Shown in pieces: positions 24,542 to 45,638 of a stretch of DNA of 64,000 nucleotides. The stretch is from NCBI GenBank assembly GCA_944323785.1, contig CALUTU010000002.1, positions 62,001 through 126,000 on the forward strand, read 5' to 3'. The notes below the pieces were generated by a model, which ran no database searches, was not told the origin of the DNA, and worked only from the letters and a program-made list of their open reading frames with translations. This DNA is from an uncultured Bacteroidales bacterium. Lineage in GTDB: Bacteria; Bacteroidota; Bacteroidia; Bacteroidales; UBA932. The position numbers and the translations under genes were made by a program. How positions within the stretch are numbered: position 1 is the first letter of the stretch; each line of letters opens with the position of its first letter.

Positions 24542-24549
24542 CAAATATA
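24542..24549 (-). promoter_or_regulatory. Putative -7 box for gpsA operon, at the repeat edge
   Basis: TATATTTG on the minus strand, 30 bases before the gpsA start. The equivalent place in repeat copies two and three reads TATATTCG, so only copy one makes a full match. Confidence 0.5.
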
Positions 24550-24744
24550 CGCAGAAGCCGAGAGGAGAACAAATTTATTTGCTCTACCGAGGCGTGAACA
24601 GTATATGCGGCGAAGCCGAATATACGCAGAAGCCGAGAGGAGAACAAATTTATTTGCTCTACCGAGGCGTGAACAGTATATGCGGCGAAGCCGAATATAC
24701 GCAGAAGCCGAGAGGAGAACAAATTTATTTGCTCTACCGAGGCG
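24545..24744. repeat. 75-bp tandem repeat, 2.7 copies, with internal hairpins
   Basis: Units start at 24545, 24620 and 24695 (ATATACGCAG each time), exactly 75 bases apart; the third stops after about 50 bases. The copies look identical by eye. Each unit holds a near-palindrome AGAACAAATTTATTTGCTCT (one mismatch pair) and, in full copies, a perfect CGGC-GAA-GCCG hairpin. Because 75 is a multiple of three, several frames stay open across the array, but no coding signal supports them. Similar AAATTT-centred intergenic repeats are, as I recall, common in Bacteroidales. The array lies between gpsA and the gene at 24835. Confidence 0.9.
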
Positions 24745-26024: not shown

Positions 26025-27083
26025 TCAGGAGTCGGGCTGCGTTTTGTCCGTGAGGTCGGCCAGGGACAGGCCGGTGAGTTCGGAGATAGTGGCATCGGGA
26101 ATTCCAGCCTGTCTCATACCTTGGGCTATCCTGATACGTTCTTCCCTGCGTCCTTTATCCTCACCTTCTTTCAAGCCTTCTTTCAGACCTTCATTTCTGC
26201 CCTCTATTATACCTTCTTTTATACCCTCCTTTATGCCCTTTTTTATGCCTTCCTCGAGGCCTTTCTTACGGCCTTCACGAAGCCCCTTTTTCATACCTTT
26301 CTCAATACCTTCCCTAAGACCGATCTTCATACCCTCGTCCACACCGTCTATGCGGCTTGACTCCATCTCGCCGCGGCGGCGCATACGGTACAGCATCTCG
26401 TTCTCGTAGGCTATCCGCTGTTCGGGCGGAAGTGAGTCTATGCGAAGACGCTCGCGGGCCTCCTCCAGACCGCGGGCCTTCGCATCCCAAGGGATAAAAC
26501 CGGTCTTCAGAAACGCTATCCACTCATCCAAAGGAGTCACCGCGACCTTGTTGAAATCATTTACGCGGAGCACATAATACTCCGGGAAGATGTCACCGGC
26601 CTCCACGCCCGAGAACATCTTGCGCTGCCTCTCAGTCAGTTGAAGTATGTCATAGGGATTGTGAAGTCCACGGAACTCCGTCCTGCCGTGATATACATAG
26701 TCGCTGCCCTGACCCAATTCGAAATACACGATGTTGATAGAGTACACCTTCTTCACGCTGCCGTAACCCTCGCCGATACTGATGTACTCGGTCACGCTCT
26801 TGGACGTACCGTACAGCATACGGTGAAAGTAGTCGTACTCCTGCTCATTCTGCATTTCTATGATTATCAGGCGGCCGCTTGAATCCTCGGCCAGCATGTC
26901 CACCCTGTTGAACTTATCCTCCATGTCAGTCTGATTGGACTCGCTCTCCAGAAAACGGTGGATGCGGATGTCCTCATCCAAAAGCACGGAAAGAAAGCCC
27001 TCCACCACCACAAAATTGCTCTTCTGCCTCAACAGGCGTTTCATCGCCCAGTCAAACCTTATCACTTTATCTCCCGGCAACAT
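26025..27083 (-). CDS. Rpn family recombination-promoting nuclease/putative transposase (PD-(D/E)XK)
   Basis: 352 residues. The nuclease core is NRVDMLAEDSSGRLIIIEMQNE with D62, E76 and Q78, the D...ExQ signature of the Rpn/PDDEXK_2 family. Residues about 250-320 are a Lys/Glu/Gly-rich run of near repeats (GIKEGIKEGIIEG type), probably a long helix. The end, RIAQGMRQAGIPDATISELTGLSLADL, is a helix-turn-helix-like tail common in these proteins. E. coli RpnA cuts DNA and promotes RecA-independent recombination; some relatives act as defence or toxin-like nucleases. No transposon ends were seen. It lies in the accessory pocket with a broken nuclease gene. Confidence 0.88.
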   Translation of the reverse strand: MLPGDKVIRFDWAMKRLLRQKSNFVVVEGFLSVLLDEDIRIHRFLESESNQTDMEDKFNRVDMLAEDSSGRLIIIEMQNEQEYDYFHRMLYGTSKSVTEYISIGEGYGSVKKVYSINIVYFELGQGSDYVYHGRTEFRGLHNPYDILQLTERQRKMFSGVEAGDIFPEYYVLRVNDFNKVAVTPLDEWIAFLKTGFIPWDAKARGLEEARERLRIDSLPPEQRIAYENEMLYRMRRRGEMESSRIDGVDEGMKIGLREGIEKGMKKGLREGRKKGLEEGIKKGIKEGIKEGIIEGRNEGLKEGLKEGEDKGRREERIRIAQGMRQAGIPDATISELTGLSLADLTDKTQPDS

Positions 27084-31998: not shown

Positions 31999-33864
31999 AT
32001 GAAAGAGATCAACTATGACGAACTGAGTTTCAAGCAACTGCTCAAATACGCCGAAAAAGGCGACGAATGGGCTCAATATCTGGTAGGACTGGAATACGCC
32101 TTCCCTGAAAATGATGAAGAAGCGGATGAGGAGGAGGCCGTCCGATGGTTCAGCAAAGCTGCGGAGGCAGGCGTGCCTGAGGCCCGCTTCAGGATGGCTG
32201 AGAGGCTGTTCACCGGCAGCGGCATTGAACAGGATCCGGAGGCGGCGTACGACCTGGCCCTGAAAGTTGCCGAAGAGGCAGACCTGCCTGAGGCGTGGGC
32301 ACTCCTGGGCTTCATGTACGGAGCGGGCGTTCCAGTAGAGGAGGATATGGACAAATGCCGGGAGTTGCTGGAGAAAGGAGCCTCCATGAGTTCCGAATAT
32401 GCTCAGTCGTTGCTGGATGAGCTCAATAACGGAACTCTTTTCGAGGATGGGGAAGATGAGGATGATTATGATGACGACTATGAGGATGATGAAGTTGAGG
32501 ATGATGAAGTTGAGGACGAAGAAGAAGAAGACGACGATGAAGAAGACGACGATGAAGAAGACGACGATGAAGAAGACGACGATGATGAAGAAGATGATGA
32601 AGATGAAGATGAAGATGATGAAGATGAAGATGAAGATGATGAGGACGATGACGAAGTAGAGTTTGGAGAGGGAGATGAGGACGACGGGGAGGAAGAAGAG
32701 GGTACTGTATATGACGGCACGGACGGTTTTCCGAAAAATGATTACATTATCGACGCGGACAGGGTCACCGCCGAAGCCCGCCGTGGCAACATCCACGCCA
32801 TCAAGACACTGGCCTGGGGCTACTACAAAGGAGTCTACGGCCTGCCTGAAAACAGGAAAGAAGGCTGGAAATGGTACGAACGCGGGGCAGATAAGAATGA
32901 CCTCTGGTGCCTCCGCGAGCTGGGCGTCCTGTACACTATTGAGGATAAAGGCCGTAAGGCGCTTAAAATCTTCGAGCAGGGCATAAAGCTGGGCAGCGGG
33001 GACTGCTGCGAGAAAGCCGGAGACCTGTATTTCTATGGGAAAGCCGGCATCTCCAAGGACTACCACAAAGCCGGCGACTACTACTGGAAAGGGCACAGCA
33101 TCGGTCATGCAGGGTGCATCGCTTCCCTGGCAGCCATGGCCTTCTATGGCAACGGAGCGGAGATAAATCTGGAGCATGCCAAATTCCTTTATCGTGATGC
33201 AGCCGGGAAAGGTCTGAAATGGGCATGGAAGATGGCCGGTCTCTCGGCTGAGCGTCAGAGACATTTTGACGAAGCCAGACAGATATACCTCGAAGGCATA
33301 GAGCACGGCAGCTGGATCTGCGCCTGCAACCTGGGACTGCTCTATTACGCCGGCAGATTCGGAGAGCAGAATATGGAACGGTGCGCCGAATACTACCGCG
33401 AGGCCATCGAGAACGAAGAGACTCAGGGATATGCCTGCATGGGAGAAGTCTTCTACGAGATGGGAGAGTACGATCAGGCACTCAGCCTGTTCAGAGAGGG
33501 TGACGATGAAGGCAATCCGGACTGCTCGGCATGGCTGGGCCGCCTGGATATAGAGCACGGCTCCGCAGGCAAAGGTGTTCAGACCCTGCGCAATGCCCTT
33601 GACAGAGGTTCATCCCTGGCCGGACTGTTCCTGGGCGACTACTACTATGGCCAAAAAAACTACTCTACTGCGCTCCAGTACTATCACAAGGCAGCCAACC
33701 GCAACGTGGGCCCTGCCCTGCTCAAGCTCGGCCGCATGTACTTCGACGGTGAGGGCACCCCGAAGAAATACACCTCCGCCCGCATTTTCCTCGAAAGGGC
33801 ATGGGAGTTCGGTCAGGACCAGGCCGAAGCCGCCATCCGCGTCCTCAAGCACTATAGATACTGA
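31999..33864 (+). CDS. Sel1-repeat protein with long Asp/Glu-rich insert
   Basis: 621 residues made of Sel1-like (TPR-type) helical repeats, for example WFSKAAEAGVPEARFRMAERL near residue 50 and LGRMYFDGEGTPKKYTSA near the end. Residues about 148-234 are an almost pure Asp/Glu tract that separates an N-terminal repeat group (1-145) from a C-terminal one (245-621). No signal peptide, so probably cytoplasmic. Sel1 proteins serve as scaffolds; the partner is unknown. The acidic tract is encoded by GAY/GAR runs including three perfect 15-base repeats at 32530-32574, a likely site of length change. Last gene of the recG run; a terminator follows. Confidence 0.88.
   Translation: MKEINYDELSFKQLLKYAEKGDEWAQYLVGLEYAFPENDEEADEEEAVRWFSKAAEAGVPEARFRMAERLFTGSGIEQDPEAAYDLALKVAEEADLPEAWALLGFMYGAGVPVEEDMDKCRELLEKGASMSSEYAQSLLDELNNGTLFEDGEDEDDYDDDYEDDEVEDDEVEDEEEEDDDEEDDDEEDDDEEDDDDEEDDEDEDEDDEDEDEDDEDDDEVEFGEGDEDDGEEEEGTVYDGTDGFPKNDYIIDADRVTAEARRGNIHAIKTLAWGYYKGVYGLPENRKEGWKWYERGADKNDLWCLRELGVLYTIEDKGRKALKIFEQGIKLGSGDCCEKAGDLYFYGKAGISKDYHKAGDYYWKGHSIGHAGCIASLAAMAFYGNGAEINLEHAKFLYRDAAGKGLKWAWKMAGLSAERQRHFDEARQIYLEGIEHGSWICACNLGLLYYAGRFGEQNMERCAEYYREAIENEETQGYACMGEVFYEMGEYDQALSLFREGDDEGNPDCSAWLGRLDIEHGSAGKGVQTLRNALDRGSSLAGLFLGDYYYGQKNYSTALQYYHKAANRNVGPALLKLGRMYFDGEGTPKKYTSARIFLERAWEFGQDQAEAAIRVLKHYRY
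32530..32574 (+). repeat. 15-bp tandem repeat in acidic tract
   Basis: Three perfect copies of GACGACGATGAAGAA (Asp-Asp-Asp-Glu-Glu) inside a larger GAN-codon run at about 32440-32700 of the Sel1 gene. In-frame copy change would alter only the length of the acidic linker. Confidence 0.85.
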
Positions 33865-39667: not shown

Positions 39668-41374
39668 TTAGAAACTGCTCTTGAGTCCCGTAGCACGGTT
39701 GAATACCGGCAGCTCCGGTGTCGAGTCCTTGTCCTTGATATAGTAGCCGTTGCGCTCAAACTGCACGGCGATACCTGAAGCGTCTTCCAAAAGGCCCGGC
39801 TCGGCGAGAGCGTCCACCTCCTTGAGCGAGTCCGGATTGAGATATGCCTTGTAGTCCTTGCCCTCCGGTATGCCGCTCATGTCGGCCTCGGTGAAGAGCC
39901 GGTCGTAGAGCCTCAGGCGCACCTTCTCGCACTGAGTGGCGTTGACCCAGTGAATCGTACCCTTGACCGAGCGCCATGTGCCGCTGCCGGGCTTGGTCGT
40001 CGGATCGTAGGTGCAGCGGATCTCGGTGATATTGCCCTCCGCGTCCTTGACCACCTCCTCGCACTTTATGATGTAGGAGTATTTCAGGCGCACCTCCCCG
40101 CCGGGACGCAGACGGAAGAACTTCTTGGGAGGCTCTTCCATGAAATCAGCCCTCTCGATATAGAGCTCGCGGCCGAAGAGGATAGTCCTCTGCCCAGCCT
40201 CGGGATCCTCGGGGTTCTTAGGGGCAATGCAGTATTCGGTCCGGCCGGTCTCCGTCTCGGTGGCCGCACTGCACTCGCCGTCATTCCAGTTGGTAATGAC
40301 TAACTTGACGGGGTCGGTGACTACCATATAGCGGTTGGAGCGCTTGTTCAGGTCCTCGCGCAGGCACCACTCCAGGAGCGAGAGGTCGATAAGGTTGTCC
40401 CTTTTGGCCACGCCCACCTTCTCGGCGAAATTGCGGATACTCTCGGGGGTATAGCCCCTGCGGCGGATACCGCAGATGGTCGGCATGCGGGGGTCGTCCC
40501 AGCCGCTGACAAAGCCGTTGCGCACTAGTTCCAGGAGCTTGCGCTTGCTCATGACGGTATAGGTGAGGTTCAGGCGGGCGAACTCATACTGATGCGAGGG
40601 GAAAATGCCCAGCTGCTCGATGAACCAGTCGTAGAGGGGACGGTGTACGTCGAACTCCAGGGTGCATATCGAATGGGTGATGTGCTCTATCGAGTCGCAC
40701 TGCCCGTGGGCATAGTCGTACATCGGGTAGATGCACCACTTGTCTCCGGTACGGTGGTGGTGTGCATGGATGATGCGGTACATCAGAGGGTCGCGGAACA
40801 TCATGTTGGGATGGGCCATGTCTATCTTGGCCCTGAGCACCTTGGATCCGTCGGGAAACTCCCCGTTCTTCATCCGCTCGAACAGGTCCAGGTTCTCCTC
40901 CACGCTGCGGTTGCGCCACGGGCTATCCGTTCCAGGCTGCTGCACCGTGCCGCGGTTCTGCCGGATCTCCTCCTGGGTCTGGTCGTCCACGTAGGCCAGT
41001 CCCTTCTTTATCAGCACCACGGCCCAGTCATATAGCTGCTGGAAATAGTCGGAGGCGTAGTATTCACCGGCCCAGTCGAAGCCGAGCCACTTGATGTCCT
41101 CCTTGATGGAGTCCACGTACTCGGTGTCCTCCTTCACGGGGTTGGTGTCATCGAAGCGGAGATTGGTACGTCCGCCGTACTTACGGGCCAGGCCGAAATT
41201 GAGGCAGATGCTCTTGGCATGGCCTATATGCAGATAACCGTTCGGCTCCGGCGGAAAGCGGGTCATCACCGACTCCACCTTGCCCGAAGCCAGGTCATTC
41301 TCAATAATCTCTTCGAGGAAATTCTTCTGCACGGTCTCTTCCGCCGCGCTCTGCTGCTTGTTCAAGTCTTCCAT
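39668..41374 (-). CDS. glnS: Glutaminyl-tRNA synthetase
   Basis: 568 residues from the ATG at 41374 (MEDLNKQQSA); the longer frame to 41401 runs into the promoter box and is rejected. Class I motifs are TRFPPEPNGYLHIGHAKS and VMSKRKLLELV. The catalytic domain, GlnRS acceptor contacts (FDDTNPVKED) and two C-terminal anticodon barrels are present. GlnRS charges tRNA-Gln directly, so this organism need not use the GatCAB route for Gln. It heads a run with rmuC, the LPP20-like lipoprotein, the barrel and the HD-UDG fusion. Confidence 0.96.
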   Translation of the reverse strand: MEDLNKQQSAAEETVQKNFLEEIIENDLASGKVESVMTRFPPEPNGYLHIGHAKSICLNFGLARKYGGRTNLRFDDTNPVKEDTEYVDSIKEDIKWLGFDWAGEYYASDYFQQLYDWAVVLIKKGLAYVDDQTQEEIRQNRGTVQQPGTDSPWRNRSVEENLDLFERMKNGEFPDGSKVLRAKIDMAHPNMMFRDPLMYRIIHAHHHRTGDKWCIYPMYDYAHGQCDSIEHITHSICTLEFDVHRPLYDWFIEQLGIFPSHQYEFARLNLTYTVMSKRKLLELVRNGFVSGWDDPRMPTICGIRRRGYTPESIRNFAEKVGVAKRDNLIDLSLLEWCLREDLNKRSNRYMVVTDPVKLVITNWNDGECSAATETETGRTEYCIAPKNPEDPEAGQRTILFGRELYIERADFMEEPPKKFFRLRPGGEVRLKYSYIIKCEEVVKDAEGNITEIRCTYDPTTKPGSGTWRSVKGTIHWVNATQCEKVRLRLYDRLFTEADMSGIPEGKDYKAYLNPDSLKEVDALAEPGLLEDASGIAVQFERNGYYIKDKDSTPELPVFNRATGLKSSF

Positions 41375-41406: not shown

Positions 41407-41455
41407 AAAAGTTCTCAGTAAACCCGCAGATTTTTTTGTTTTTGTTTTTATTGTT

Positions 41456-41463
41456 TAACTTTG
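41456..41463 (+). promoter_or_regulatory. Putative -7 box of propeller gene 1, duplicated leader
   Basis: TAACTTTG preceded by a T-rich TTTTTG-type run. The leader up to the ATG at 41490 closely resembles the one before the small secreted protein at 42758, sharing TTTAACTTTG, TTAAAACT and TCATG in the same order and spacing. Confidence 0.6.
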
Positions 41464-41573
41464 GAGTAAAACTTTAAAACTGACTCATCATGAGACATTG
41501 CTCTGGAGACAACAAAAGAGAAAACTCCGACTGGCTAATTGAAAATCCCATTGCCAGACCCGAAAACAAACCC

Positions 41574-42644
41574 ATGATCCACTCTTCGACATGCATTACT
41601 CTGATGGCTTTGCTACTTGTCCTGTCATGCGGCAGGCAAGTAGAAGATATATCTGACTCTGTTCCCACGGTCACACTCTCCTCACTGGTAAAAGACACAG
41701 CCAGGCTGTTGATTCCGGAACGTGAGCTTGACTTCCCCGTATCCGCTTTGCAAATATCCGTGTGGAAAGACAGTGTCTCTGTCGTACGCAACGGTGTGAG
41801 TCGAGACAATATGTTTCTGGAGTTCCGTACGCTATACGGCAACAAGCATATCAAGAGCCTCTTCCACGCAGGTAACGGACCTGATGAAATGCTGAGTTTC
41901 AACTTTGACTACCAAAGCGATTCTGTCGTGGCAAGGGATTTCATGAGAAACAACATAGCCATAATACCCATTGACTCGGTCGTCTTTAATCCAGATTATA
42001 GAGTCAGACTTAAAAAAGCTGATATCAACACCCAATATCTCTGGCCTTTCAAAGGCGGCTTACTAGCTGTAAACCCTTTCTGCTTCCGAAATGATGAGAT
42101 AGGTGTCAATAATGACGGATTCAGATTCATTCAAACTGACAGCAGCTACACCTACAAAGAGGAAAAGGAGTACGAATACAGGACTTTCAATGTTATATGT
42201 ATGAGATTTATCATCTCGTATGATAACGACCGCATAGCTGTGTACAACTCCAGTGAGTCTGAAGTTGAAATATACGACACCGAACTGAACCTGCTGAAAA
42301 TAATCAAAGGTCCTGAAATGCCGCACGGCATAAAGTATTACATAAACAAATACAACTACGTATCGTATTATGGAGAAGTGCCACAGGCATACTTCTGGGC
42401 ATGCTCCAATAATAATCACTTCTATCTGGCTTACAACGGAGACTTCACCTCCGGCAATGAGAAGACTATATACGATCTGAGCTCTTGGGTCTTCAAGTTC
42501 GACTGGGACGGCAACTTCGTGGACTCGTACTACGTGGACCACTTCATCAGCTCCATGTCCCTCAGCGAGGACGGACAGTCCATGTACATCTTCGGAGTAA
42601 ACCGCGACGGGGAGAACGTCTTCTACAGAGCCAGGCTGACATAA
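41574..42644 (+). CDS. 6-bladed beta-propeller lipoprotein 1 (BF3164-like)
   Basis: 356 residues from the ATG at 41574, which begins a lipoprotein signal (MALLLVLSC, Cys near residue 19) and matches the 354-residue length of the second propeller. An in-frame ATG at 41490 would add 28 polar residues before the signal. The body has propeller-type repeats: GNGPDEML, LYGNKHIKSLF, RIAVYNSSESEVEIYD and WVFKFDWDGNFVDSYYVD. Members of this Bacteroidota family are outer-surface or periplasmic lipoproteins of unknown ligand. The last 168 bases are about 89% identical to the end of the second propeller gene, far above the rest. It begins a cassette with a small exported protein, a second propeller and a CxxC lipoprotein. 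Confidence 0.85.
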   Translation: MIHSSTCITLMALLLVLSCGRQVEDISDSVPTVTLSSLVKDTARLLIPERELDFPVSALQISVWKDSVSVVRNGVSRDNMFLEFRTLYGNKHIKSLFHAGNGPDEMLSFNFDYQSDSVVARDFMRNNIAIIPIDSVVFNPDYRVRLKKADINTQYLWPFKGGLLAVNPFCFRNDEIGVNNDGFRFIQTDSSYTYKEEKEYEYRTFNVICMRFIISYDNDRIAVYNSSESEVEIYDTELNLLKIIKGPEMPHGIKYYINKYNYVSYYGEVPQAYFWACSNNNHFYLAYNGDFTSGNEKTIYDLSSWVFKFDWDGNFVDSYYVDHFISSMSLSEDGQSMYIFGVNRDGENVFYRARLT

Positions 42645-42690
42645 CGGGCATGACGTATCCCGTGTTTATTTTTTACGAAATGCGCATATT

Positions 42691-42720
42691 TTTTTGTTTT
42701 TGTTTTTGTTTTTGTTTTTG
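42691..42720 (+). repeat. (TTTTTG)5 hexanucleotide repeat in promoter
   Basis: Five perfect TTTTTG units immediately before the TAACTTTG box at 42723. A TTTG at 42699-42702 sits 20 bases from the box, as expected for a Bacteroidota -33 element, so the repeat supplies the upstream promoter element. Confidence 0.9.
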
Positions 42721-42722
42721 TT

Positions 42723-42730
42723 TAACTTTG
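42723..42730 (+). promoter_or_regulatory. Putative -7 box of small exported protein
   Basis: TAACTTTG directly after the hexanucleotide repeat, 27 bases before the ATG at 42758. Best-supported promoter of the cassette because both -33 and -7 elements are present. Confidence 0.65.
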
Positions 42731-42757
42731 AAGCGTAACATTAAAACTAACTCTATC

Positions 42758-43072
42758 ATGAAAACTAAACTCAACAAAAAATCCTTGGCAGCCGCTATCG
42801 CCGCCATCGTCCTCTCCTCCGGCGCTTTCCTGGGCATCTCGTTATCAATCTCACAAAAAGCAAATGCTCAGTATGCTAGTCTTTGTGACCTTTCTTATGA
42901 AAACGGACCTATGGTTATGTCTTGCACCGAGTCCAATACCCAAGACTGCGAGGTTAGACTTATCCTTATCTCACCCACTCATGATACCACCGCCGTTCTC
43001 AAATTCCGTTGCAACGGAGAGACTGTAAAAAGCGAGAACGACCATCTAATCTTCAACCCTATCGCACATTAA
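42758..43072 (+). CDS. Small exported four-cysteine protein, NVEALA-like position
   Basis: 104 residues. A clear Sec signal peptide (KKSLAAAIAAIVLSSGAFLG, likely cut after KANA) leaves a mature part of about 70 residues with four cysteines (LCDL, MSCT, DCEV, RCNG), suited to two disulfides. Size, signal and placement next to propeller lipoproteins resemble the Bacteroidota NVEALA peptides, but the NVEALA motif itself is absent (KANAQYASLCDL stands there), so family membership is uncertain. It has its own promoter and lies six bases before propeller 2. The longer in-frame reading back to 42485 overlaps propeller 1 and is not used. Confidence 0.78.
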   Translation: MKTKLNKKSLAAAIAAIVLSSGAFLGISLSISQKANAQYASLCDLSYENGPMVMSCTESNTQDCEVRLILISPTHDTTAVLKFRCNGETVKSENDHLIFNPIAH

Positions 43073-43078
43073 CCTTTT

Positions 43079-44143
43079 ATGAGGACAGTACTTATATTCA
43101 GTATTATATATGCATCATTCATGGTATCCTGCAAGACAAGGACTATGGACGATGCATATGATATTATCCTCAATGACAAAGTCAAAGATACGGCGACAGT
43201 ACTGACAGCCGGAAATGTCAACTTCATCCCTCCCGTATCCGCCATAGCCGTGCATATATACGATGACAGCATTGCCGTAGTTCACAATACTAACAAAGCG
43301 CATAGGAAGCATGTGGAGTTGTACAATATCCATGACAACACACTGATTAAAGAACTGATAGCACAAGGCAATGGCCCTGGAGAAATGGTTTCTGCCCTGA
43401 GCCGCTACAACAATGACACTCTTGTAATATGGGATTTCATGAAATGTAACATTGCAACTATCCCCATTAAATCTGCTATTTCAGACACTGCCTATAATCC
43501 CACTCTGCGATCTTTCTCATTGACACCAAAATGCATGTGGCCTTATAAAGGGAGACTGATGGCTATTAATCCAAACTGCTTCAGGTACGACAAACTGGGA
43601 ATCAATAACGACGGGCCAAGACTTATTATAAGTGACAGCAATTATGTGTACAAGGAAAGCAGAAAGTACGATATCCAGACTGTAAACGCCGTATACACGG
43701 ATTTTTTCATATCTTGGAAAAACAACAGGATTATTGTATTCGATACATCAGAACCAAGAATCGAAATTTTCGACACTAATCTCAATCTACAGAAAACTAT
43801 TTATGGTCCGGAACTTCCGGACGAAATCAGATACTCCACATATGAGAACTTCGGCACTTATGTCGCTGCTGAAGGAAAAAGCCCGGAATCTTACCATACA
43901 TTCTGTACCGATGAAGACTTTTTCTACTTGGCATACAATGGAGATTTTTTCTCACGCGACAAGACTATGTATGATCTGAGCACCTGGATTTTCAAGTTCG
44001 ACTGGGACGGCAACTTCGTGGACTCGTATTACGTGGACCATTTCATCCACTCCATGTCCCTCAGCGGGGACGGGCAGTCAATGTACATCTTCGGTGTAAA
44101 CCGAGACGGCGAGAACGTATTCTACAAAACCAGACTGACATAA
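43079..44143 (+). CDS. 6-bladed beta-propeller lipoprotein 2 (BF3164-like)
   Basis: 354 residues, with lipoprotein signal IFSIIYASFMVSC (Cys at 18). It is a paralogue of the protein at 41574: shared landmarks are QGNGPGEMV, MAINPNCFRYDKLGINNDG, RIEIFDTNLNL and the almost identical end WIFKFDWDGNFVDSYYVD to ENVFYKTRLT. The middle differs widely, as expected if each recognises a different partner. It follows the small exported protein by six bases and precedes the CxxC lipoprotein by five, so the three are almost surely one transcript. Confidence 0.87.
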   Translation: MRTVLIFSIIYASFMVSCKTRTMDDAYDIILNDKVKDTATVLTAGNVNFIPPVSAIAVHIYDDSIAVVHNTNKAHRKHVELYNIHDNTLIKELIAQGNGPGEMVSALSRYNNDTLVIWDFMKCNIATIPIKSAISDTAYNPTLRSFSLTPKCMWPYKGRLMAINPNCFRYDKLGINNDGPRLIISDSNYVYKESRKYDIQTVNAVYTDFFISWKNNRIIVFDTSEPRIEIFDTNLNLQKTIYGPELPDEIRYSTYENFGTYVAAEGKSPESYHTFCTDEDFFYLAYNGDFFSRDKTMYDLSTWIFKFDWDGNFVDSYYVDHFIHSMSLSGDGQSMYIFGVNRDGENVFYKTRLT

Positions 44144-44148
44144 AGACA

Positions 44149-44745
44149 ATGATTATGAGATTCCGCATTTTCACATTAATACTTTTCATATCAATGACTG
44201 TTGCTTCATGCGGTAATAGGAATAACAATCAAGGCAGCAACTCAAATACCAGTACCGACTCCGACACCGGCATATCCCCGTCCGTCATTGAAAGTACAGG
44301 CATAGATTCATCCAAGATCCGCAGACTGGAAGCTTTCACCAACATCGACCTTGAGAAGGCGTATGCATCCTCTCTGGAAGACGGCAATTCTTTTCCTGAC
44401 TTCTCATCAGCATTCACGCTGAGCCCTGAAGATGATATTGCACTGATTCTGTTCATAACCAGTCCGGACTGTTCGGCCTGCATCGCCTCTACCCTGGATT
44501 TCCTGAGCACCAACAGCCGCTCCAATACATGTCCTACCATTCTCTTTTTCAAGGAAGGCAACCGGGATATATATGAGTTCTACAAAGAGCAGTATACCCA
44601 GCAACTTGATTCCACTACCCGGCATTACATCAACCATACCTTTGTCATAAGTGTAGGATATTCCGAAGAAGCCAACAACGCTCCGGACGGGGCATATCTG
44701 CTCTACCGCAACCGGGTCATCAACTATATGCCCTGGTCATTGTAG
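44149..44745 (+). CDS. Thioredoxin-like lipoprotein with CxxC
   Basis: 198 residues. Signal ILFISMTVASC with lipid Cys near residue 21, then a Ser/Asn/Asp linker. A thioredoxin-like region follows from about residue 95: ALILFITSPDCSACIAS, with a C-S-A-C active site after a beta strand, and PTILFFKEGNRDIYEFY. The cis-proline loop is not clear, so fold assignment is tentative. An envelope thiol enzyme beside a secreted four-cysteine protein suggests disulfide handling of that protein. Last gene of the cassette, convergent with yicC eight bases away. Confidence 0.78.
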   Translation: MIMRFRIFTLILFISMTVASCGNRNNNQGSNSNTSTDSDTGISPSVIESTGIDSSKIRRLEAFTNIDLEKAYASSLEDGNSFPDFSSAFTLSPEDDIALILFITSPDCSACIASTLDFLSTNSRSNTCPTILFFKEGNRDIYEFYKEQYTQQLDSTTRHYINHTFVISVGYSEEANNAPDGAYLLYRNRVINYMPWSL

Positions 44746-44753
44746 GGTCTTGC

Positions 44754-45638
44754 CTACAGAACGTTCAGGACCTGTTCCTTGATCTTCTCAAGCTCGTCCT
44801 TCATCCGCACCACGCACTTCTGCATCCCGGCATGGTTGGACTTGGAGCCGAGGGTATTGATCTCACGGCCCATCTCCTGGGCGATGAATCCCAGTTTCTT
44901 GCCCGGACACTCCTCCACGTCCATCGTATCGCGGAAATACCGGCAGTGCTGCCTCAGCCGCACTTTCTCCTCATTGACATCCAGTTTCTCCAGGTAAAAT
45001 ATCATCTCCTGCTCCAGGCGGTCACGGTCAGGTGACAGGGACAGTTCCTCCATCCTGGAGAGTATTCTCTGACGGATGAGCGGTACCCTCTCGGTCTCAA
45101 AGACCTCGGCCTCTGACAAGATGCGCTCAATATTGTCCACGCGGGTCTGCAGGTCAGCCCTGAGCACCGCCCCCTCACGGGCCCGGAAGGCAATCAAGGC
45201 ATCCACAGCCTCCTCAAGGGCCTTGCCCAAAGCCATTGTCTCCTCCTCAGTCATGTCGTCCTTGTCGGCAGACACGACATCCGGCATACGGAGCACGGAC
45301 GACACCAAGACAGACGCCATGTAGTCCTCCCGACAGTCCAGCTCAAGGGACGAGACGATCTCGGACATCTGGCGGAAATAATCCCTGAACACATCCCCGT
45401 CTATCCTGCGGGCCTCAGAACCCGAGACAGCCTCCGAAGTCAGAAAGACATCTATATTGCCCCTCACCAGACGGCGGGTAAGGTATTGCCTGTATTCCAG
45501 TTCCTTATCCTTGGGCAGAAATGAGGACTTGAGCGAGATGTCGCTGCCCTTGCCATTGAGCGAGCGTATCTCCACAGTATATTTCTTGTTGCCGGACGTA
45601 ACTTCGGACTTGCCGTATCCGGTCATGGACAGCATCAT
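44754..45638 (-). CDS. yicC: YicC family endoribonuclease
   Basis: 294 residues. N-terminus LSMTGYGKSEV and C-terminus CPGKKLGFIAQEMGREINTLGSKSN, both hallmarks of YicC, with an acidic metal-site region between. YicC proteins are metal-dependent endoribonucleases; in E. coli YicC acts on small RNAs such as RyhB. It is the last gene of the long yajC-yicC run, eight bases after the DUF6340 gene. The start may be either of two adjacent ATGs. Confidence 0.93.
   Translation of the reverse strand: MMLSMTGYGKSEVTSGNKKYTVEIRSLNGKGSDISLKSSFLPKDKELEYRQYLTRRLVRGNIDVFLTSEAVSGSEARRIDGDVFRDYFRQMSEIVSSLELDCREDYMASVLVSSVLRMPDVVSADKDDMTEEETMALGKALEEAVDALIAFRAREGAVLRADLQTRVDNIERILSEAEVFETERVPLIRQRILSRMEELSLSPDRDRLEQEMIFYLEKLDVNEEKVRLRQHCRYFRDTMDVEECPGKKLGFIAQEMGREINTLGSKSNHAGMQKCVVRMKDELEKIKEQVLNVL

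Follow-up and report, generated by a model that had tools for sequence, protein, structure and literature searches.

A site-polymorphic cassette of propeller lipoproteins, a hypervariable four-cysteine exported protein and a probably thioredoxin-like CxxC lipoprotein in an uncultured Bacteroidales bacterium

NVEALA-type proteins (PF14055) and the propeller proteins (PF15869) that neighbour them are named in databases, and we know of no tested function for them. The word NVEALA occurs in none of 5.39 million open-access full texts, a body to which few subscription journals and preprints belong, and among the papers listed no title or abstract opening deals with a module composed of a small exported protein, a propeller and a CxxC protein. 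Bacteroidetocins and other double-glycine peptides are exported by C39 transporters (PMC10352776). Here we describe a cassette whose best reading is a peptide system that varies horizontally: a CxxC lipoprotein would mature the peptide, and a propeller would be its cognate partner.

The cassette occupies positions 41490-44745 of the window (the whole 64,000-nucleotide stretch analysed) and comprises four intact genes on the forward strand, each with an export signal; gene starts and signals were judged by eye. The sequence-only reading had described four adjacent exported products, including a 104-residue secreted protein with four cysteines and a last protein carrying CSAC, in an A/T-richer region with the last three genes spaced by 5-6 bases, and the open reading frames and measurements bear this out. 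Propeller 1 (41490-42644, with a likelier start at 41574, signal MIHSSTCITLMALLLVLSC and lipobox LSC) scores 38.5 bits against PF15869 and propeller 2 (43079-44143, lipobox VSC) 49.2 bits, both above the cut-off of 29.2 bits; the two are 49% identical. Between them lies the gene for the 104-aa small exported protein (42758-43072), marked by a contrast between leader and mature part, and the last gene (44149-44745) encodes a probably thioredoxin-like lipoprotein with CSAC at residues 108-111. Propeller 1 is separated from the small gene by 113 bases containing a promoter-like sequence of their own; the following gaps measure 6 bases (small gene to propeller 2) and 5 bases (propeller 2 to the CxxC gene). 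GC content is 43.5% (0.435) across 41421-44745 versus 52.0% (0.520) in the remainder of the window, a value equally poor in 0.3% of stretches of the same length, with one stretch from about 13 kb coming close. None of the four genes encodes an exporter, a regulator or an S26 signal peptidase, and none of the four proteins has an NCBIfam match near cut-off.

The leader of the small protein spans residues 1-37 and ends in SISQKANA, with the putative cleavage between KANA and Q placed by eye; the NVEALA motif is lacking, as had been noted from the sequence. The cysteines lie at residues 43, 56, 64 and 85 (C-x(12)-C-x(7)-C-x(20)-C), and an even number of cysteines is found in 31 of 39 mature peptides of a hand-picked set. 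The median net charge of the mature peptides is -1, and this neutral to acidic character sets them apart from membrane-lytic peptides. No Pfam family matches the small protein, and its single-sequence model (mean pLDDT 45) merely suggests two hairpins.

Two promoter-like regions, each made of a TTTTTG tract and a -7 box, were located on the forward strand. The one serving the small-propeller 2-CxxC unit (42691-42729) contains 5.5 copies of TTTTTG (42691-42723) and the box TAACTTTG at 42722-42729, with TTTG 20 nt upstream of it; the one ahead of propeller 1 (41433-41462) contains 2.8 copies (41433-41449) and the same box at 41455-41462, and includes a 56-nt copy of the former at 79% identity. 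Three consecutive copies of TTTTTG were found at the cassette site alone, in the available sequence of the genome under study as across 19 genomes of the genus, and the length of the tract in the cassette promoter varies. A scan for sigma-70 promoters and terminators, a promoter type that is also unsuitable here, gave about as many matches as shuffled sequences, and no tRNA was found near the site. The 3' ends of the propeller genes share a 195-nt direct repeat (42459-42653 and 43958-44152, forward strand, 87% identical), the result of duplication or gene conversion. Propeller 1 has a promoter-like region of its own and may be an orphan that remained after a partial duplication; a designed pair of propellers is therefore not supported. 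Two further candidate features were discarded: cysteine C276 of the propellers as a mixed-disulfide site, since it is conserved in lone propellers of the genus too and is therefore not linked to the small protein, and the first 28 codons of propeller 1 as a relic of a lost small gene, to which they bear no likeness by eye.

The gene set was found to recur: the trio of small protein, propeller and CxxC protein stands beside glnS in congeners, and a divergent form exists in other orders, so that the cassette is more than a chance assembly. It is present at the glnS site in 5 of 18 genomes of the genus. Between the window and its congeners, the flanking genes are well conserved (glnS, encoding GlnRS, 97-98%; rmuC, 78-80%), as against 49% for the CxxC protein and 43% for propeller 2 (58% to G062); within the small protein, identity falls from 70-73% in the leader to 19-32% in the mature peptide. 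The mature peptide is hypervariable behind a conserved leader, a contrast that is new here; like the anatomy, recurrence and site polymorphism of the cassette, it is established by computation. The window-type small protein was encountered in the genus only (4 of 199 genomes of the family; 1 of 247 of the order, namely the one under study). A second cluster in the same genome (L139) carries tandem small-propeller pairs, as does L169, with leaders alike and mature parts divergent. Cognate co-evolution within the L139 array was considered and rejected, as the identities of small proteins and propellers do not run parallel in its three pairs.

A peptide pheromone would likewise accord with a hypervariable mature part and with neutral to acidic peptides: the product would be a self-signal, the propeller a periplasmic receptor subunit, and a histidine kinase/response regulator (HK/RR) pair or a TPR-type membrane regulator would read the signal. 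HK and RR genes indeed adjoin 3 of 10 NVEALA loci (L130-L132), and a TPR-type regulator with a DUF3244-like gene occurs in 3 of 34 genus-level loci and in L139, although the TPR-HTH name was given by eye and Pfam yielded just a sub-threshold DUF6377. However, a regulator is absent from the four window genes, was not seen beside the glnS-site orthologues and is missing at most loci (among PF15869 loci, HK in 1/35 and RR in 0/35), which makes this explanation unlikely. We regard as similarly improbable a bacteriocin-like toxin with the propeller as its immunity protein, in which case orphan propellers (propeller 1 and many lone ones) would confer immunity against neighbours. The tandem pairs of L139 and L169 fit such a scheme, as do exporter-like genes, which we take to be of RND type near the propeller loci (within 4 genes at 7/35 PF15869 loci) and of C39-ABC/HlyD type near L103; the peptides, however, are not cationic and have no double-glycine leader, and PADLOC, an anti-phage library and hence a weak test, matched 0/4 window proteins at E up to 0.01.

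The linkage of the genes was assessed around loci found by the PF15869 family alone (47 propellers and 125 other genes). A small exported cysteine-containing gene lies directly upstream of 18/47 propellers versus 15/125 other genes. Under length and distance rules that were widened on the same data, a thioredoxin-like CxxC gene lies within three genes of 8/18 propellers with a small gene, 0/29 without and 12/125 other genes; under the narrower first rule there was no enrichment around PF15869 propellers (3/47 versus 10/125). Of the eight positives, two are doubtful (L162, and L169 at 4193), and a single locus, L169, accounts for three. The linkage test in genus-level regions gave 6/9 versus 3/29. 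At NVEALA-selected loci, a propeller occurs within two genes in 10/12 cases and a CxxC gene within three genes in 8/12; there, CxxC genes near small-gene propellers (6/12) are no commoner than near other long genes (21/45). A single 511-aa frame in L066 fuses a propeller to a CSMC domain. In that genome the place of the small gene holds just a 43-aa ORF without cysteines. S26 genes, assigned by a Pfam run on representatives, lie within four genes of a propeller at 5/34 genus-level, 3/10 NVEALA and 2/35 PF15869 loci, so that some larger relatives have a signal peptidase of their own; in L132, MauE accompanies S26 and CxxC genes. That the CxxC and small proteins are unrelated neighbours, with propeller and lipoproteins serving envelope nutrient or stress functions, would suit the 29/47 propellers lacking a small neighbour (and any CxxC neighbour), the GLPGLI (11/34) and barrel genes (13/34) flanking genus-level propellers and the narrower rule, but is less likely still given the recurrent trio, the fusion gene and the even cysteine counts.

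The CSAC lipoprotein is probably thioredoxin-like, as had been proposed. The CxxC is retained in 9/9 similarity matches spanning the domain (E below 1e-3), and 7 of the first 8 matches in a PDB profile search are named as thiol-disulfide or thioredoxin proteins, the best with a weak E of 2e-4. In a modest model (mean pLDDT 65), CSAC (108-111) sits at the N-terminus of a helix (109-122) following a β-strand (97-103), in thioredoxin-type element order; the best Foldseek matches are mostly thioredoxin-like at E 0.02 or worse and TM about 0.3. No Pfam family, thioredoxin included, comes near cut-off, and the one PHROGs match (E 0.004, unknown function) falls on the signal region. Residue P179, a candidate for the cis-proline facing the CxxC, is shared with the two nearest relatives and missing from most rows of alignment A2; conservation of the proline loop does not extend to all aligned sequences. 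The invariance of CxxC in A2 was dropped as evidence, because its 24 rows were picked for CxxC. This protein may plausibly have a thiol role on the small protein.

The explanation that we favour, albeit tentatively, is a secreted, disulfide-bonded, strain-variable peptide with a cognate lipoprotein partner, and we infer each of its four biochemical steps. The 104-aa precursor would be exported by Sec and cleaved after KANA, as its sequence suggests. The thioredoxin-like lipoprotein with CSAC may then pair its four cysteines or proofread their pairing, as the gene linkage, the propeller-CxxC fusion and the excess of even cysteine counts suggest. The mature peptide would be bound by propeller 2 in the periplasm or at the outer membrane, the propeller being partner, receptor or immunity protein, as the repeated one-to-one pairing of small genes and propellers suggests. 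Finally, the peptide may pass from cell to cell, either signalling or competing in a strain-specific manner, in keeping with a mature part that is hypervariable while its leader is conserved, presence or absence at one site, the variable-length promoter repeat, and the exporters and two-component systems beside some relatives. Against this explanation count the narrower-rule result, the even spread of CxxC genes at NVEALA loci, the cysteine-free ORF in the fusion genome, the missing Pfam family and poor fold E values of the CxxC protein, the charge of the peptides, the lack of exporter, regulator and S26 genes in the cassette, and the many propellers that have no small neighbour. In Bacteroidota surface lipoproteins, the export signal is formed by acidic residues that follow the lipidated cysteine at positions +2 to +5. 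No such signal is present in the three window lipoproteins (GRQVED, KTRTMD, GNRNNN), and two acidic residues at these positions occur in 6/91 lipobox-bearing propellers by simple count; the surface system envisaged in the sequence-only reading is not supported.

The recurrent trio, the fusion gene, the contrast between leader and mature part and the polymorphism of the site make it possible to test the hypothesis that gut Bacteroidota possess a diversified system of secreted peptides, equipped with a folding enzyme and a partner protein of its own. Such a system, if real, would let cells of a dominant gut phylum interact by a new route. Broader, and rather doubtful, is the idea that an uncharacterised class of disulfide peptides, hypervariable in sequence, extends across the phylum Bacteroidota. 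Each peptide would have a cognate propeller lipoprotein and often a dedicated thiol enzyme, signal peptidase, exporter or regulator; the sets would move between strains as cassettes (in this genus under a slippage-prone TTTTTG promoter) and serve strain-specific signalling or competition.

Among known systems, bacteroidetocins (PMC10352776) are, like the window peptide, small Bacteroidales peptides, and the L103 relative adjoins a C39-ABC/HlyD-type pair; the window peptide differs in its Sec-type leader without GG and, by eye, in the lack of a transporter among the four genes. The CxxC protein resembles TlpA/ResA/Etrx-type oxidoreductases in its lipid anchor, the CxxC at a helix start after a strand and the thioredoxin-type order, but differs in having no Pfam thioredoxin match and no proline loop conserved throughout the alignment. 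Compared with NVEALA proteins, the window small protein has neither a PF14055 match nor the motif, showing an A-x-A signal-peptidase-like end instead, and the 11 members of A1, searched with E up to 10, matched 8 families without PF14055; an hhalign comparison of window-type with NVEALA-type small proteins gave a probability of 30% (E 6e-4) over 31 columns. The NVEALA/PF15869 loci nevertheless share the layout of the cassette, with a small exported cysteine-containing protein adjoining a propeller and a CxxC protein nearby, and the window small gene precedes the PF15869 propeller 2 by 6 bases, as in the NVEALA context.

The genes lying next to glnS in the window most likely constitute a secreted-peptide cassette. 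The stretch has a G+C content of 43.5%, versus 52.0% for the remainder of the window, and is flanked by two minus-strand genes, which we take to be glutaminyl-tRNA synthetase (glnS; 39668-41374, with what is presumably rmuC beyond it) and yicC (44754-45638). It holds four intact genes with export signals recognized by eye: propeller 1 (starting at 41490, or at 41574 as judged from the signal sequence, and ending at 42644), a small protein of 104 aa with cysteines at positions 43, 56, 64 and 85 (42758-43072), propeller 2 (43079-44143) and a CSAC lipoprotein (44149-44745). Both propellers exceed the Pfam cut-off of PF15869, a family of TolB-like six-bladed propellers; Pfam gives no match for the small protein and, for the CxxC protein, none near any cut-off.

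The combination of a small exported Cys protein, a propeller and a thioredoxin-like CxxC protein recurs in other genomes. Family searches (199 genomes each, that of the window included) detected propeller 2 in 37, the small protein in 4 and the CxxC protein in 20 genomes, some of the weaker CxxC matches spanning the signal region only. An earlier linkage test gave an odds ratio of 10 for a mixed set of loci, which had been partly selected by the CxxC protein and included false positives, such as a CTGC-bearing signal peptidase. For a test independent of the CxxC protein, loci were found via PF15869 in genomes of the order and the phylum (again including our own), 13/119 and 24/296 of which, respectively, yielded a match. 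Outside our genome this amounted to 31 places in the order and 47 in the phylum, of which 18 and 22, respectively, fall within the regions taken, mostly chosen as best-ranked; the 13 omitted order places comprise 11 within regions already obtained for NVEALA matches or locus L143 and two others. A propeller was detected in 35 of the resulting 36 regions. A small exported protein carrying two or more cysteines occurred within two genes upstream of 18/47 propellers, as opposed to 15/125 other long genes (p 3e-4), and a thioredoxin-like CxxC protein was encoded within three genes of 8/18 propellers with such a small gene versus 0/29 without (p 1e-4; 12/125 for other genes). These p-values are exploratory, since the wider rules were set after a narrower rule had revealed no enrichment (CxxC near 3/47 propellers and 10/125 other genes). 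Two of the eight positives are doubtful, namely L162, with a questionable small gene, and the propeller at 4193 of L169, where the CxxC protein counted is a six-Cys small protein; L169, a locus from outside the order, supplies three of the eight. Among 35 regions from the propeller 2 search (34 from the same genus, several of them orthologous between genomes, and L071 from another genus of the family), a CxxC protein was found near 6/9 propellers with a small gene versus 3/29; two of these nine small ORFs, in L071 and L081, are probably spurious, with no CxxC protein nearby in either case. Of twelve regions selected by NVEALA (PF14055), which cover 17 of 20 NVEALA places, 10 contain a propeller within two genes and 8 a CxxC protein within three, but in this set CxxC is not more frequent beside propellers that have a small gene (6/12) than beside other long genes (21/45).

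The small protein combines a conserved leader with a highly variable mature part. Compared with G109, G075 and G151, three congeneric genomes with the cassette at the same site, its leader is 73, 70 and 70% identical and its mature part 27, 19 and 32% (the G075 protein is interrupted by a contig end), with glnS at 97-98% and rmuC at 78-80% in the same genomes; propeller 2 shares 43% identity with its counterpart in G109 and 58% with that in G062, and the CxxC protein 49% with a congener. Among four small proteins in another locus of our own genome (L139; G000:C1:97000-115000), identity is 53-84% for the leaders and 24-42% for the mature parts, and in L169 nearly one leader precedes dissimilar Cys-rich tails (one of these proteins has 8 Cys), three of the genes preceding propellers. 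The number of cysteines is even in 31 of 39 mature parts, from hand-picked proteins and by a simple counting rule that misses some Cys, which would be consistent with disulfides in the mature peptides. The same 39 have a median net charge of -1 (+2 or more in 3, -2 or less in 18), and this distribution argues against membrane-lytic peptides.

CxxC is kept in all nine other family-search matches that extend over the domain with E below 1e-3 (CSAC, CSMC, CSFC and CSVC twice each, CSSC once); in our 24-row alignment its invariance is by construction, since the rows were selected for CxxC. The first eight PDB matches of the alignment profile include seven that carry a thiol-disulfide or thioredoxin name, the eighth being an uncharacterised protein (E values of 2e-4 for 4fyb, 6e-4 for 3eur and 3e-3 for 4hqs). 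A three-sequence model (mean pLDDT 65) displays the thioredoxin-type order of elements with CSAC at a helix start, and its Foldseek matches are mostly thioredoxin-like but weak (best E 0.02). The 287-aa CxxC protein of L127 has a weak score, far below cut-off, to the thiol-disulfide oxidoreductase StoA. In G062, propeller and CSMC domain form a single 511-aa frame (L066:4970-6505), with a 43-aa ORF devoid of Cys upstream in the place of the small gene; the fusion links propeller and CxxC protein but is not an example with a Cys substrate.

The glnS site is polymorphic within the genus. The locus was obtained in 18 of 19 genomes: the cassette lies beside glnS in five (G000, that of the window, G075, G062, G151 and G109, counting cases where the contig ends after the first cassette gene), yicC follows directly in six (G087, G046, G141, G098, G005 and G173) and a different gene or sequence in another six (G197, G167, G131, G159, G179 and G120). 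G098 has no cassette at this site, yet carries a related propeller-CxxC pair elsewhere, and in G191 a promoter remnant with a TTTTTG tract is followed by other DNA, the cassette being absent. (TTTTTG)3 occurs in 4/19 genomes, always adjoining glnS.

Similar promoter-like sequences (79% identity over 56 nt) precede propeller 1 and the small protein, both with a -7 box, TAACTTTG, 27-28 nt upstream of the start codon; the sigma-ABfr consensus, according to PMC7366714, is TAnnTTTG at -7 plus TTTG near -33. At their 3' ends the two propeller genes share 87% identity over 195 nt, compared with 49% for the whole proteins; from this and the paired promoter-like regions, propeller 1 looks like an orphan left by partial duplication. 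In the four congeneric genomes having the cassette at this site, the glnS-side promoter precedes the small gene or its 43-aa counterpart, never a propeller. TTTTTG is present in 5.5 copies at 42691-42723 and in 2.8 upstream of propeller 1, with 5 perfect units in the window and in G109, 3 in G151, 2 in G062 and 2 plus a variant in G075. In the window, as in G109 and G075, a TTTG is located 20 nt upstream of the -7 box; it is missing at this distance in G151, in G062 and before propeller 1 (17 and 11 nt). The number of copies could accordingly set the presence or absence of the upstream box.

Genes within four of a propeller were assigned by similarity to representatives. An S26 signal peptidase accompanies 5/34 genus-level, 3/10 NVEALA and 2/35 PF15869 loci; GLPGLI (11/34), a CarboxypepD-reg barrel (13/34) and a TPR-type regulator with a DUF3244-like gene (3/34) occur at genus level, HK and RR in 3/10 NVEALA loci and an RND-type pump in 7/35 PF15869 loci. 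Pfam backs the names S26, Porph_ging/GLPGLI, CarboxypepD_reg, HK, RR, Wzy_C and MauE, with DUF3244 just below cut-off and DUF6377 (the TPR regulator) and transglutaminase well below; TolC, MFP, RND, MacB, HlyD and C39-ABC are names of our own assumption. In L132 an NVEALA protein and a propeller are accompanied by S26, MauE and a CxxC protein; in L103 propellers, a six-Cys small protein and a CSSC lipoprotein are flanked by a C39-ABC/HlyD-type pair on one side and by TolC/MFP/RND-type genes on the other. L139 is a second, larger array, its gene names being in part presumed, with a TPR-type regulator, a DUF3244-like gene, several propellers, the four small Cys proteins, whose leaders are of NANAEAL type, and two CGSC-type lipoprotein genes, one of them truncated, followed by TolC/MFP/RND-type genes. 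Genes resembling, by eye, a presumed Rpn/PD-(D/E)XK-like gene of the window (26025-27083; product with a Lys/Glu/Gly-rich low-complexity tail) lie close to propellers in L069, L070 and L140. Elsewhere in the window, a perfect 75-bp tandem repeat (24544-24744; 2.7 copies) adjoins a gene that we read as glycerol-3-phosphate dehydrogenase, and a presumed SEL1-like repeat protein (31999-33864) has a long low-complexity stretch rich in Asp/Glu.

In the mechanism that we propose for the secreted-peptide cassette, the small protein would be exported by Sec and cleaved after KANA, the CSAC lipoprotein would form or proofread its disulfides (a thiol idea of the sequence-only reading that survives), the cognate propeller would bind the peptide, and the peptide would act between cells, in either signalling or competition. 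What the analysis shows is the gene linkage, the variability and the polymorphism of the site; chemistry, binding and purpose are deduced from these. The accompanying claim that the lipoproteins are located at the surface is not supported, since they lack the acidic lipoprotein export signal; among 91 propellers, 6 have two acidic residues between +2 and +5.

The word NVEALA occurs in none of 5.39 million open papers searched in full text, and BF3164 appears as a single table entry (PMC1887533). BT0664, a '6-bladed beta-propeller' gene of B. thetaiotaomicron, stands at -4.2 in an iron-stimulon table, probably not significant given the 0.353 in the next column (PMC10434189). PMC10352776, a survey of Bacteroidales RiPP clusters and GG-leader peptides, does not contain the word 'propeller' in its text. 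A profile of 11 window-type small proteins matched our own genome only among 247 order genomes, and by Pfam the window-type protein is not a member of PF14055; its resemblance to proteins of the NVEALA type is no more than suggestive.
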